Origin: Kineococcus mangrovi
GTDB lineage: Bacteria; Actinomycetota; Actinomycetes; Actinomycetales; Kineococcaceae
Reading direction: 5' to 3'
DNA length: 64,000 nt
NCBI RefSeq assembly: GCF_041320705.1
Contig: NZ_JBGGTQ010000007.1
Span: 186,001 to 250,000 of the forward strand
Numbering within the stretch: the first letter of the stretch is position 1; each line of letters starts with the position of its first letter. Position numbers and translations under genes: made by a program. The notes under the pieces are model-generated. The model ran no database searches and had not been told where the DNA came from. It was given only the letters and a program-made list of their open reading frames with translations. Of this stretch, positions 15,589-52,494 are shown one piece after another.

Positions 15589-16173
15589 TCACGACTGGAT
15601 CAGGTACAGCTCCAGCTGGACGACCCCGGCGCGGGGGGACTGGGCGTTGACGGCCCGCCAGAAGTCGCGCTTGGCGGACCCGGCGAACACCTCGGGCGCG
15701 GCGGCGTCGAGCTGGGCGTTGACCCGCCGGGCCAGCGCCGTGCCGGCGGCGGGGTCACCGGCCGTCCCGAAGGTCAGGACGAAGGCGGCGCGCCGGCCCT
15801 GGGCGGCCAGGTCCCCCACGGCGGCCGCGACCGAGGCGCGGACCTCGTCGTCGTTCGAGCCGTCGACGAGCACCTCCAGGACGACCGGGGCCTGCGCCAC
15901 CCCGGCCGGCATCGACGGCACGGGCTCGGGGGCCGGGGCGGTCACCGTCACCGTCGGGGCGGGCGTGGCCGTGGGGGCCGCGGTGGCGACCGCGGCGGCG
16001 GCCGCGGGGGCCTCGACACCGGCGTGCACGGCCCCGCCGGCAGCCAGGCCGATGATCGTCAGCGCCAGGAGGGCGTCGGCGAAGACCCAGCCGGCCAGGC
16101 CGACGGTGCCGTTCTCACCGCGCTGCGAGCGCAGCGCGGGACGCAGCGGGACCCGCGGGCCCGGGCGCCTCAC
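15589..16173 (-). CDS. Small single-TM protein with MotB-like (F/Y)AD helix; partner of the coiled-coil protein
   Basis: The protein has 194 residues. A short basic N terminus leads into GWVFADALLALTIIGLAAGG, one membrane helix with an acidic residue (D33) at its start. MotB in this same window has SYADMLTVLMALF with D29 in the same place. A Pro/Thr/Ala linker and a compact ~100-residue extracellular domain ending in QLELYLIQS follow. The domain is not recognisably OmpA-like. It overlaps the large upstream gene as GTGA, so the two are made together. I do not recognise the family; a stator-like or TolR-like role is inference from the helix only. Confidence 0.6.
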   Translation of the reverse strand: MRRPGPRVPLRPALRSQRGENGTVGLAGWVFADALLALTIIGLAAGGAVHAGVEAPAAAAAVATAAPTATPAPTVTVTAPAPEPVPSMPAGVAQAPVVLEVLVDGSNDDEVRASVAAAVGDLAAQGRRAAFVLTFGTAGDPAAGTALARRVNAQLDAAAPEVFAGSAKRDFWRAVNAQSPRAGVVQLELYLIQS

Positions 16174-18233
16174 TGACCCACCCGCGCGTAGCGCCGGGCG
16201 GCGAGGTCCTGCAGCGTGCGCGGGGCGACGGCGACGAACTGCTCCTCGACCTCCGGTTCGGGGCGCGCCGCGCGGCGCACGACCGGTTCGGGCTGGGGCG
16301 CACGGGGTTCGGGCCGGGGTTCGGGCCGGGGTTCGGGCCGCAGCTCCGGTCGCAGCTCGGGCCGTGGCTCCGGCCGGCGGGCCGGCACGACCGGCCGCTG
16401 CTGGTGCTGCTGCTGCTGGTGGTGCTGCTGGCGGGCCGAGGCGAGGGCGATCCGCTCGGGCAGGGCCTCGACCTGGTGGGTCAGCTGGTCCATCACCGAG
16501 TCCACGACCGAGCCCAGGTCGGAGTTCAGCGACTGGCTCAGGGTCTGGGTGAGGTCCTGGGTCAGGGTGCGGCTGGCGTCGCGGTAGGCGCGGTTGACCT
16601 GCCGGACGTGGTCCTCCCCGGCCATGGCCAGGGTCTGCGTCACGGCCGCCGAGACGTCCTCGCGCAGGGTCGAGCCGATGCTGCGCAGCGCGCGGCCGGT
16701 GGCGTCGGCGTGCTCGTGCTGGACCTTCTCCAGCCAGCGCGGCACCGAGCGCATGTCGTGCGCGGCCTCCACGAGGCGGTTCTCGATGCCCCGCCAGGAG
16801 TCCAGGACCTCGTTCTGCGTGGTCAGCAGGTCGGCCAGGCGCTCCTCGTGGCGGGTGCGGCGGTCGGCGGCCTCGGCGGCGGTGGCCAGGACCCGCGTCG
16901 CGGTGCCCAGGGCGGCCTCGGCGGCCTCCGAGGTGCGCTCGACGTCGCGGCGCAGCGTCTCCATCGTGGTGGCGGCGTGCTCGGCGGAGGCGGCGACGTG
17001 CTCGCTGAACGCCTCCCCGGTCATGCGGGTGACCTGCTGGACGCTCTCGACGACCGTGGCGTGCATCGTCTCGACCGACTCCCGGGCCGTGCCCGACAGC
17101 GCCGCGACGTGACCGGTGACGGCCTCGCCGAAGTTGGCGCTGTGCCTGCTCATCGCCTGCGCCGACGTCGACAGCTCGGTGATGGACTCCCGGGTCTGGG
17201 TGCTGAGGGCCGCCACGGCGGCCGAGACGCCCTCGACGGCCGACAGCACCCGGTCCCGGCCCTGCAGCCCCTCCCGCAGCGCCTCGGCCGTGCCGGCGCG
17301 GACCTGCTCGAGGTGCTCGGCCAGGGTGCGGGTCGACTCGGCCAGGGTGGCGGTGTGCTGGTCGCGGTCGGCGGCGATGAGCTCACCGTGGGTGGCCACG
17401 GCCCGCGTGACCGTCGAGCCCAGCTCGGTGGCGGCCCGGGCGACGTCGGCGCCACCGGCGTTGGCGGCCTCGGCCGCGGTGATCGCGTGCTGGGCCGAGG
17501 AGCGCACGGTCGCGACGAGCTCGCTGGTGTCGGCGTGCAGGCGGATGGTCTCGGCCACCAGCCGGCCCAGCTCGGTCAGGCCGCGCTCGAAGTGCGCACC
17601 GAGCTGCTCGGCGGCGTTGCTGCGGTGCGGGGCCAGCACCAGGGTGGCGCGTGCGGCGAAACCGCGCAGGAGCCGGCGGTGGGACTCGTCGGCGCGCGCG
17701 GCGCTCAGCTCGTCGGCGCGTTGGCGGCGGTCGGTGGCCACGGCCACCGCGATCGCGGCGGCGATGAGGACGACGGCGAACTCCGCCACGCGGTCCAGGG
17801 AGAAGAAGGTGCGCCCGCCGAACCCGTCGAGCCACAGCTGCAGGAACGACTCCCCGTCGCCGGCCTGGCCGGCCGCGGACATCTGCCCGTAGGCGCGCCC
17901 CGCGAACAGCAGACCGACCCACGTCACCATGACAGGGGCGAAGACGAGGATCGTGCGCAGCGACCCCGAGCGCAGCACGCTGCGGCGCAGCTCCAGGGGC
18001 GCGACCGCGGCGTCGACGTCCAGGACGTCGAACAGGTCCGCGTCGGCCCAGCGGCCCAGCCGGCCGTCACCGCCGTCGGCCTCGGTGCGCACGGCGCGCG
18101 CGAGCTGCTCCAGCACCTGCGCGCGGTGCTCGGAGGGCTCGGCGGCGGTGAGCTGCTCGGCCTCCTCGGCCAGGAGGGCCAGTTCCGCCGGACCCGCGGC
18201 GGGCGCGTCGGTGGGACGTTCTGCGCTGTCCAT
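16170..18233 (-). CDS. Large two-TM coiled-coil membrane protein of unknown function
   Basis: The protein has 687 residues. Residues 1-90 are cytoplasmic-looking and acidic. TM1 lies near 93-115 (LVFAPVMVTWVGLLF) and TM2 near 149-167. A predicted coiled coil of more than 400 residues follows, rich in Ala, Glu, Thr and Gln, resembling the low-complexity helices of chemoreceptors and long-tailed MotA/ZorA proteins but without the conserved methyl-accepting hairpin. A QQHHQQQQHQQ run and PEPRPE repeats then precede a short conserved-looking tail. ATG start at 18233. A good sigma-28-like promoter lies about 75 bases upstream, placing it in the motility regulon. Not a recognised family. Confidence 0.6.
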   Translation of the reverse strand: MDSAERPTDAPAAGPAELALLAEEAEQLTAAEPSEHRAQVLEQLARAVRTEADGGDGRLGRWADADLFDVLDVDAAVAPLELRRSVLRSGSLRTILVFAPVMVTWVGLLFAGRAYGQMSAAGQAGDGESFLQLWLDGFGGRTFFSLDRVAEFAVVLIAAAIAVAVATDRRQRADELSAARADESHRRLLRGFAARATLVLAPHRSNAAEQLGAHFERGLTELGRLVAETIRLHADTSELVATVRSSAQHAITAAEAANAGGADVARAATELGSTVTRAVATHGELIAADRDQHTATLAESTRTLAEHLEQVRAGTAEALREGLQGRDRVLSAVEGVSAAVAALSTQTRESITELSTSAQAMSRHSANFGEAVTGHVAALSGTARESVETMHATVVESVQQVTRMTGEAFSEHVAASAEHAATTMETLRRDVERTSEAAEAALGTATRVLATAAEAADRRTRHEERLADLLTTQNEVLDSWRGIENRLVEAAHDMRSVPRWLEKVQHEHADATGRALRSIGSTLREDVSAAVTQTLAMAGEDHVRQVNRAYRDASRTLTQDLTQTLSQSLNSDLGSVVDSVMDQLTHQVEALPERIALASARQQHHQQQQHQQRPVVPARRPEPRPELRPELRPEPRPEPRPEPRAPQPEPVVRRAARPEPEVEEQFVAVAPRTLQDLAARRYARVGQ

Positions 18234-18308
18234 GGCGTGGGGGTTCCTGTCCTCGAAGGTGGTGCCGGGGTGGTGAGGGGGTGGGGTCGGGGGATCGGCT
18301 GGCCTCTT

Positions 18309-18336
18309 CCTCGGCGCGGGCCGCGGGGAACTTGAG
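18309..18336 (-). promoter_or_regulatory. Sigma-28-like promoter of the coiled-coil/MotB-like pair
   Basis: On the minus strand CTCAAG (18331-18336), 16 bases, then CCGAGG (18309-18314). It matches the local consensus at every fixed position and lies 76 bases before the ATG. Confidence 0.65.
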
Positions 18337-18629: not shown

Positions 18630-18657
18630 CTCAAGACGCACGGCCGCAGGGCCGAAG
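18630..18657 (+). promoter_or_regulatory. Sigma-28-like promoter of the flgB operon
   Basis: CTCAAG (18630-18635), 16 bases, CCGAAG (18652-18657). It gives a leader of about 95 nt before flgB, which contains three 12-bp repeats. Confidence 0.68.
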
Positions 18658-39338: not shown

Positions 39339-39366
39339 CTCAAGGGATTCACCCGAACAGCCGATG
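39339..39366 (+). promoter_or_regulatory. Sigma-28-like promoter of fliQ-fliR-flhB
   Basis: CTCAAG (39339-39344), 16 bases, CCGATG (39361-39366), about 50 bases before the fliQ ATG. The spacer carries CACCCGAACAG, a half copy of the recurrent motif. Confidence 0.68.
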
Positions 39367-44499: not shown

Positions 44500-44527
44500 C
44501 TCAAGCCCTCGCCCCGGTCTGCCGAAG
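44500..44527 (+). promoter_or_regulatory. Sigma-28-like promoter of the flhA operon
   Basis: CTCAAG (44500-44505), 16 bases, CCGAAG (44522-44527). The predicted leader to the flhA GTG is about 85 nt and carries the perfect dyad at 44583-44596. Confidence 0.68.
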
Positions 44528-50763: not shown

Positions 50764-52494
50764 GTGAGGACGAGCACGAGCGCGTACCCCGCGGCGCCCG
50801 CCGTGACGGTGCCGTGGGACGAGGCGCTGGAACGGGCCGGTGTCGCCCTGGCCCTCCTGCACCCCGCCGGTCACGTCGCCGCGGCCACCGGCGCCTACTG
50901 CCGGCTGACCGGTGAGGACCCCGCCGCGGTGGTGGGGACCCCCGTCCTGAGCTGGTGGGGCGCGCTCCGCGACCGCGCGCCGGGTGGTGCGCTCGACGGG
51001 CTCGGCCCGGCGCCGACCGTGGCCGCCGTGCTCGCCGTCCTCACCGCGGTCGACGTCGAGCTGGACGTCGAGCTGCACGAGGGGCCGGGCGGGGACCGCG
51101 CCGGCCGGGGTGTCGTGCGGGTCCAGCTCACCGCGGCCGAGGACGGCGGCGCCGTCGTGCTGCTGCGCGAGGTCAGCGCCGAGCACGCCGAGCGCGCCGC
51201 CCTGCGGGCGCGGCTGGCCCAGCAGGAGGCGGTGATCGCGGCCTCACCGGACACGATCTACCGGTTGGACCTGGGGGTCGGTCACGTCGAGTGGTCCAGC
51301 ACCGGTGGCGCCTGCCTGCTCGGCCTGCCCGCCGCCGACGACCCGTTCCCGGCCGACCTCGTGCACCCCGAGGACCTGCCCGGTGTCCGGCGTGCGGTCG
51401 AGGCGCTGCACGCGGCGGCCCCCGGGGAGATCGTGGAGTGCACGTACCGCGTGGTGGACGGCCAGGGGCAGGAGCGGTGGGTGCACACCCGCTCCACCGT
51501 CACCGACCGCGACGGTGCAGGTCGCGCCCTGCGCGCGGTCGGCATCGCCCAGGACCTGACCGAGACCATCACCACGATGGACGCCCTGGCCGGCTCCGAG
51601 CGGCGCTTCCACGAGGTGTTCGCCCGCGGCCCGGTCGGGATGGTGCTGTTCGGGCTGGAGGGCTGGATCAGCGAGGTGAACGACGCCCTGGGTGCGCTGC
51701 TGGAGCGGGACACCGCCGACCTGGTCGGCACCCCCGCCGCCGAGCTGCTGGACCCGCCCGCGGAGCAGGGCCCGAGCGCCCAGGAGCGCGAGGAGCGCGC
51801 CGGGGCCCAGGCCCAGCTGCAGCGCCTGCTGGACGGCACCGACGAGGTCGCCCACCGCGAACGGCGCTTCGACCTGCCCAGCGGGCGGACCGTGTGGGCG
51901 CAGGTGACGTTGTCGTTGACCTCCTCCAGCACGGGTGAACCGGCGTTCCTGGCCTTCGTGGAGGACGTCACGGCCCGCAAGCGCGAGGCCGAGCAGCTCG
52001 AGCACGCCGCGCTGCACGACCCCCTCACGGGCCTGCCCAACCGGGCCAAGGCCGAGGACCGGCTGGGCACGGCCCTGGCGCGCACCCGGCGCCGCGGTGG
52101 CGGCTGCGCCGTCCTGTTCGTCGACCTCGACCACTTCAAGGACGTCAACGACAGCTTGGGGCACGCCGCGGGGGACGACCTGCTGCGCGAGGTGGCCGAC
52201 CGGCTGCGCGGCCTCCTGCGCACCGGGGACGTGGCCGCGCGCATCGGCGGGGACGAGTTCGTCCTCGTGTGCGAGGACGTCGTCGACGCCCGGGCCCTGA
52301 CGGCCATCGCCGAGCGGGTCTGCGAGCGCATCACCATCCCCGTGGACCTGGGCACCCGCACGGTCACCGTCACCGCCAGCGTCGGGGCCGCCCGCACCGA
52401 CGGCGCCCTGGGCCCGGAGGAGCTGCTGCGCGCGGCCGACCGCGCCATGTACCGGGCCAAGGCGGCCGGGCGGGCCTGCTGGCGGGCCGCCTGA
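50764..52494 (+). CDS. PAS-domain diguanylate cyclase
   Basis: The 576-residue protein has no membrane helices. Three PAS-like sensor regions follow one another (about 10-125, 140-275 with HPEDLPGVRRAVEAL, and 280-410 with FARGPVGMVLFGLEGWISEVNDALGALL). A GGDEF domain comes last with ARIGGDEF near residue 495 intact, which makes c-di-GMP. There is no EAL domain and no clear RxxD inhibitory site is asserted. GTG start with AGGAGG upstream. It completes a c-di-GMP set with the GGDEF-EAL and PilZ genes. Confidence 0.9.
   Translation: MRTSTSAYPAAPAVTVPWDEALERAGVALALLHPAGHVAAATGAYCRLTGEDPAAVVGTPVLSWWGALRDRAPGGALDGLGPAPTVAAVLAVLTAVDVELDVELHEGPGGDRAGRGVVRVQLTAAEDGGAVVLLREVSAEHAERAALRARLAQQEAVIAASPDTIYRLDLGVGHVEWSSTGGACLLGLPAADDPFPADLVHPEDLPGVRRAVEALHAAAPGEIVECTYRVVDGQGQERWVHTRSTVTDRDGAGRALRAVGIAQDLTETITTMDALAGSERRFHEVFARGPVGMVLFGLEGWISEVNDALGALLERDTADLVGTPAAELLDPPAEQGPSAQEREERAGAQAQLQRLLDGTDEVAHRERRFDLPSGRTVWAQVTLSLTSSSTGEPAFLAFVEDVTARKREAEQLEHAALHDPLTGLPNRAKAEDRLGTALARTRRRGGGCAVLFVDLDHFKDVNDSLGHAAGDDLLREVADRLRGLLRTGDVAARIGGDEFVLVCEDVVDARALTAIAERVCERITIPVDLGTRTVTVTASVGAARTDGALGPEELLRAADRAMYRAKAAGRACWRAA

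Follow-up and report, generated by a model that had tools for sequence, protein, structure and literature searches.

Two adjacent membrane-protein genes lie beside the flagellar gene cluster of the actinobacterium Kineococcus mangrovi, and no Pfam or NCBIfam model scored above its cut-off on either product. The question raised by this locus is what such a pair does and whether it belongs to the flagellum. The locus was analysed within a 64,000-nucleotide stretch, referred to as the window (positions 186,001 to 250,000 of contig NZ_JBGGTQ010000007.1, assembly GCF_041320705.1). Both genes are on the minus strand. The large gene (16170-18233) encodes a 687-residue protein from an ATG start and the small gene (15589-16173) a 194-residue protein from a GTG start; the two open reading frames were confirmed at these coordinates, as was the 4-base overlap. 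An initial annotation of this DNA had described them as a two-gene operon. That annotation had proposed a new stator-like complex linked to motility. The stator-like character of the small protein and a conserved promoter-like site support the proposal, but a general flagellar role did not hold. We favour, with about even confidence, the reading that the pair forms a stator-like, probably ion-driven membrane complex of a new actinobacterial family, which in Kineococcus stands under a flagellar-type promoter.

The small protein consists of one membrane helix with an FAD motif, a Pro/Thr-rich linker and a C-terminal domain. The helix (residues 30-47; 16033-16086, minus strand) was assigned from a low-confidence structure model and from profile matches of ExbD/TolR/MotB type, and D33 (codon 16075-16077, minus strand) sits at its head within F31-A32-D33. 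The initial annotation had likened this residue to the Asp in the YAD motif of MotB. Family alignments were built from 17 large and 17 small proteins, and later from 21 large and 20 small ones; the Asp is invariant in all 20 small proteins, where the invariant positions include G-W..A-D..L and the motif reads G-W-x-[FY]-A-D. When the small-protein profile was compared with 177,635 PDB sequences, the six best of seven matches were to ExbD (two), TolR (three) and MotB, all of them weak (E 0.046-0.69, with ExbD and TolR among them at E 0.046-0.47). Profile alignment with hhalign gave a probability of 67.8% against an eight-member ExbD/TolR family and 51-70% over the ExbD/TolR comparisons. None of 60 block-shuffled controls scored as high (best 20.7%), the reversed control reached 0.3%, and single controls with TolA, Pal, YbgE, YqhA and FliL gave at most 0.7%. 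The C-terminal domain (residues 94-194; 15592-15894, minus strand) is predicted to run strand-helix-strand-helix-strand, and a low-confidence model of these roughly 100 residues has a fold like that of OmpA and MotB domains, so the earlier statement that an OmpA domain is lacking was probably wrong. The residues of the MotB peptidoglycan site, as read from the alignment, are not conserved across the small-protein family. The ExbD/TolR/MotB likeness of the helix, together with the OmpA-like domain, is supported but weak. Six additional small-protein matches at E 1e-4 to 7e-4, from five order- or family-level genomes and a second place in genome G007, were not confirmed on inspection.

The large protein is built from an N-terminal helical part, two membrane helices, a long helical tail, a Pro-rich stretch and a conserved C-terminal tail. 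Helix 1 spans approximately residues 92-114 (17892-17960, minus strand) and helix 2 approximately residues 149-167 (17733-17789, minus strand); both were placed from the alignments, with limits taken from the sequence. Invariant residues across the 17 and later 21 aligned proteins include P100, T104 and W105 of helix 1, as well as F130, W134, A150 and R204. The initial annotation had described a coiled-coil tail of more than 400 residues. A long helical tail was indeed found (residues 191-612; 16398-17663, minus strand), with 3 prolines in 422 residues and hydrophobic residues recurring every 3.5-3.75 residues (peak 3.6; the observed power at 3.5 was reached by 0 of 300 shuffles). This pattern fits long amphipathic helices, and a coiled coil is likely though unproven. 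A structure model of residues 1-260 was all helical, with a mean pLDDT of 48.9. The earlier suggestion of a likeness to ZorA/ZorB could not be sustained by matches to ZorA models, which in PADLOC were unspecific and confined to the helical tail: five of the six begin at residue 262 or later and the sixth at 176, and no counterpart of the MotA-type membrane domain of ZorA was recognised. Matches to the ZorA2 model turned up in 23 of 394 genomes, all between its positions 204 and 415, and the window's own genome was unmatched. The initial annotation had seen neither zorC nor zorD at the locus, and no search aimed at them was made. The PADLOC ZorA, NCBIfam TonB and LegC matches were all judged to be noise of the helical tail or the Pro-rich stretch. 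A Pfam fvmX2 match (E 5e-4, on the large protein, short of the model's cut-off) was judged compositional; a full-length fvmX2 protein at locus L086 adjoins a MoxR-type ATPase and lacks such membrane helices, both by reading.

Within the genus, the large protein was found in 9 of 11 Kineococcus genomes and the small protein in the same nine. Genome G004 (Kineococcus indalonis T90) was counted as a carrier on the C-terminal part of its small protein, the only part found, and in G003, where no usual start codon lies near the expected start of the small protein, the open stretch was taken. Relative to G006, dN/dS was 0.115 for the large gene and 0.208 for the small gene, indicating purifying selection; this constraint and the conservation in nine genomes indicate that both genes are real. 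To the right of the pair in the window, and divergent from it, lie flgB (identified by eye), flgC, fliF, fliG and the other genes of the flagellar cluster. The pair is beside and divergent from flgC-fliF-fliG at 8 of the 9 loci, window included, and G004 carries these genes on another contig. In G002 and G009 the same neighbours are kept and FliG is still matched, with the pair absent. When four flagellar-cluster proteins were used to build a tree with G011 as its root, these two genomes came out as the sister of the nine carriers, so that the pair was either gained once or lost outside the carriers. In K. indalonis T90 (L024:2962-5599, also L032), the reading frame of the large gene continues into the sequence for the C-terminal part of the small protein and the small protein's helix is missing, which is either a real fusion or an assembly collapse (1060 contigs).

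The link to the flagellar programme comes from a promoter-like site, CTCAAG-N15-GCCGA, upstream of the pair (18311-18336, minus strand), and from a divergent twin before flgB, CTCAAG-N15-GCCGAAGGAGT (18630-18655, plus strand). The CTCAAG-N16-CCGAGG promoter of the initial annotation is the same site, written here as CTCAAG-N15-GCCGAGG. Alignment of the upstream regions of the nine loci gave TCAAG-N15-GCCGAG toward the pair and, on the opposite strand, CTCAAG-N15-GCCGA toward flgB, and a scan located both sites at 9 of 9 pair-bearing loci, with a TTCAAG variant in L022. The pair-side site was missing from the same intergenic stretch at all three pair-less loci (G002, G009 and G011), where the flgB-side site stands alone. 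The window contains 6 matches to CTCAAG-N14..18-GCCGA, compared with 0.14 expected from shuffles; when spacers of 8-25 bases were counted, N15 gave 5 matches, N16 gave 1 and the others none. The FliA promoter consensus of Actinoplanes is reportedly CTCA-N15..17-GCCGAA. Two more CTCAAG-N15-GCCGA sites, at 39339-39364 before fliQ and at 44500-44525 at the start of the flhA frame, suggest internal promoters within the flagellar cluster.

Two sets of results weigh against the favoured reading. First, no relation of the large protein to MotA or ExbB could be detected at the sequence level. Its PDB profile matches were coiled coils and TRPC channels, and as a candidate MotA/ExbB/TolQ homologue it reached an hhalign probability of only 0.1-0.6%. 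Against 12 ExbB/TolQ-type sequences the value was 0.4%, with 2 of 60 shuffles scoring as high, whereas the positive control, TolQ alone against the same ExbB family (of which TolQ itself is one row), gave 100%. An alignment with TolQ/ExbB helix 2 that set Thr over Thr had a probability of 0.3% and was discarded. The PF01618 (MotA_ExbB) model matched motA alone in the window's genome and was not among the family matches of alignment A8 (17 members). The profile comparison with known stators that the initial annotation had proposed was favourable, if weakly, for the small protein and negative for the large one. Second, the promoter-like pattern is not distinctive genome-wide, where it has 50 sites and a control pattern has 35, and 17 N15-class sites inspected outside the window (from 30 loci) formed no clear motility set. 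Some of the genome-wide sites with N15 or N18 spacing may be codon pairs that lie in frame. The gene after one N15 site (L077) reads as a PAS/aerotaxis-type receptor. Because of these counts, the case for sigma-28 control lies in the conservation at this locus and not in the pattern itself, and we infer such control of the pair on that ground.

A different explanation is that the pair acts as a scaffold, structural or signalling in nature. As a coiled coil anchored in the membrane it would position or orient the flagellum; the Asp would serve helix packing and no ions would flow. The long helical tail, the flagellar-type site and the lack of a detectable MotA/ExbB relation would all suit such a role. 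It sits less well with an acidic residue that is invariant in 20 proteins where a membrane helix begins, with a small protein whose best PDB matches are ExbD, TolR and MotB, with an OmpA-like outer domain, albeit from a poor model, and with relatives in genomes lacking FliG (below). We regard the scaffold as unlikely.

Relatives outside Kineococcus were sought among 394 genomes of the class. A first large-protein profile, made from the membrane part of 8 of the 9 Kineococcus loci (G004 excluded), matched 15 of 394 genomes at E <= 0.01, the window's own included, and the matches in G272 and G289 (E 0.008-0.010) were dropped. A broader profile from 5 Kineococcus loci and 12 others matched 17 of 394 at E <= 0.001, own genome included, leaving 16 carriers outside Kineococcus. 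A small partner with the motif [AS]GWx[FY]AD adjoined the large gene in all 16 (12 at first, then 4), and from this constant adjacency we conclude that the two proteins work together. The G-W-x-[FY]-A-D motif and the P/T/W of large-protein helix 1 were invariant across very divergent pairs. In four relatives of family f44 with genomes of 1.3-1.5 Mb (L118, L120, L121 and L122), the pair is kept, the large protein has 237-387 residues and no kinase- or defence-type neighbour was noticed; these pairs represent a streamlined minimal form. In two f45 genomes (L116:3622-4806 and L123:7275-8342) a third gene with an N-terminal membrane helix, by reading, directly follows the pair and is perhaps a further component of it; a Pfam search on the L116 gene gave no match.

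None of the 16 carriers outside Kineococcus had a match to FliG, which the window's genome does have. Flagellar genes occur in only 6% of Actinomycetia species, according to the accessible part of PMC10746217, and given this rarity the absence is unremarkable: the family is not flagellum-bound, and an avoidance of flagella is not implied. The pair is also no general flagellum part, because none of the other carriers matches FliG and two FliG-positive Kineococcus genomes lack the pair. The initial annotation had held that a pair found mainly in non-flagellated actinobacteria, with no link to sigma-28, would speak against its proposal; the phylogenetic profile against flagellar genes places the pair mainly in non-flagellated species, but in Kineococcus there is a putative link to sigma-28. 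The same FliG result speaks against a true extra flagellar stator acting on FliG, which we consider very improbable. The pair's position, its promoter site and its stator-like small protein would fit that role, yet motA is the sole PF01618 match in the genome and the tail, by reading, is unlike the cytoplasmic loop of MotA.

In three of the relatives the pair stands at the head of a same-strand run: in L113 it is followed by a kinase-like gene (by reading, no Pfam match), BrxD (PADLOC E 9.5e-181) and a BrxHI-type helicase (1.3e-302); in L114 by a vWA-like frame (by reading), PP2C, a kinase-like gene (by reading) and BrxD (PADLOC E 1.7e-183); and in L117 by vWA, PP2C and a kinase-like gene (by reading). 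Elsewhere, an SNF2-type helicase matching HmaA lies about 1.1 kb downstream of the pair (L119), PP2C and kinase genes lie about 2 kb off and convergent (L112), a type I restriction R-like gene is on the opposite strand (L123), kinase-type genes are nearby (L166 by Pfam, L167 by reading), and an upstream frame has a P-loop (L167 and L168). Nothing defence-like was noticed by reading, with no family search made, in L115, L118, L120, L121 and L122, beyond a UvrD-like frame (by reading) nearly 4 kb away on the opposite strand in L115. The link to defence-type genes is clear in 3 of 16 relatives and weaker in some others. Close to one copy of the pair that is very divergent there is an Hsp70-type gene (L169:42-1859).

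Triads of vWA, PP2C and kinase genes, termed TerY-P, have been linked to restriction and antiphage systems, as stated in the available part of PMC11090510. The pair could be a ZorAB-like defence or stress module: a long-tailed membrane protein complex that senses phage entry, is merely expressed in the motile stage and does not have the flagellum as its target. The runs in L113, L114 and L117 and the helicase in L119 speak for it. On the other side, reading and a comparison of neighbours showed no such gene next to the Kineococcus pair, with no defence-family search made there; the Kineococcus pair was inherited in one clade at one place rather than patchily; and two large-protein queries found no match among PLSDB plasmids at E 1e-5. 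We consider this module improbable as an account of the Kineococcus pair.

The favoured reading, a stator-like complex, leads to the following model. The small protein would be a MotB/ExbD-like axle, with a membrane helix whose Asp looks essential, then a flexible linker and, outside the membrane, an OmpA-like domain. The large protein would be the ring or wheel; the first of its two membrane helices carries the invariant Pro-x3-Thr-Trp, and its cytoplasmic helical tail is very long. Since the pair has matching parts (Asp helix, linker and outer domain; a partner with a membrane hairpin and a long tail), ion binding at D33 may be what moves the tails; if the pair works as MotAB, ExbBD, GldLM and ZorAB do, the ring of large subunits would turn or tilt when D33 is protonated. 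Ion flow, ring stoichiometry and work output are likewise inferred. The moving tails would pass their motion to a cytoplasmic target, which would be non-flagellar in the other carriers found and in some is probably encoded by the vWA/phosphatase/kinase-like and BREX-type genes nearby. In one Kineococcus clade the pair would be an accessory of the motile stage, its timing set by the flagellar-type promoter, because the copy there adjoins flgB under such a site. Since the cluster also contains motA, followed by motB (with an OmpA-type domain by reading, and carrying YAD), the pair would not be the main stator. A direct action on FliG is unlikely. More tentatively, the pair may represent an unnamed class of two-gene ion-driven motors in Gram-positive actinobacteria, with only two membrane helices in the ring subunit and a tail that can reach several hundred residues. 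In species without flagella such motors would work for signalling or anti-phage systems, and they would have been recruited once, by an ancestor of most Kineococcus, into the flagellar programme.

The remaining surroundings of the pair are as follows. The window also holds motA, fliQ, flhB and flhA. To the left of the pair, reading of the sequence indicates genes for an EamA-type transporter, a GGDEF-EAL protein and an M56-type peptidase, the last together with a blaI-like regulator; at the Kineococcus locus the neighbours are flagellar, blaI-like/M56-type and cytochrome genes, identified partly by reading. G005 has an extra gene (L018:12027-13004) between the pair and the EamA-type gene; its likeness to the gene at 50764-52494 of the window is 41%.

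A search of titles and abstract beginnings returned no described actinobacterial pair of this kind, although a published account is still possible. The accessible part of the K. radiotolerans genome paper lists no motility gene between Krad1628 (fliS) and Krad1647 (flgB) (PMC2587704). The available portions of PMC11090510 and PMC12839542 do not name the pair as a component of TerY-P triads or of BREX/Shango-type systems, and that of PMC12505986 deals with homologues of MotAB and lists ZorAB and GldLM among the remote homologues yet to be placed. Known motors of this kind (MotAB, ExbBD, TolQR, GldLM and ZorAB) are few and their origin is open. If the model is right, a family thinly spread over actinobacteria, with the same Asp logic and an unrelated-looking ring protein, would be a test case for motor origins and for motor transfer between defence and motility, and would supply a candidate motor tied to TerY-P/BREX-type operons in actinobacterial hosts.

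Among these systems, the accessible text of PMC9389320 describes MotAB, ExbBD and GldLM as 5:2 rotary motors with an inner dimer inside an outer pentamer, reports a mid-membrane Asp in MotB and TolR, and states that GldLM and MotAB are not obviously related in sequence and that the long cytoplasmic tail of GldL is proposed as an anchor. GldLM is likewise a two-gene motor with a long cytoplasmic tail and no obvious MotAB sequence relation; it belongs to another phylum, and its likeness to the pair is one of layout. TerY-P and BREX/Shango-type genes are same-strand neighbours of the pair in three relatives, unlike at the Kineococcus locus. MotB and the small protein share a single [FY]AD Asp helix, a linker and an OmpA-like domain (in a low-confidence model), and the Kineococcus pair has a flagellar-type promoter-like site; the pair differs from MotAB in its FliG-less carriers outside Kineococcus, in a large protein without the MotA domain and in its tail. 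ExbD and TolR give the best sequence likeness of the small-protein helix, and ExbBD and TolQR share the large-then-small gene order, although the two-helix, long-tailed large protein has no detectable ExbB/TolQ likeness. Hosts of this type are not known to have Ton or Tol systems. ZorAB combines an Asp helix and OmpA-type domain with a partner that has a very long cytoplasmic tail, and the pair follows the same overall plan, with helicase genes near some of its relatives.
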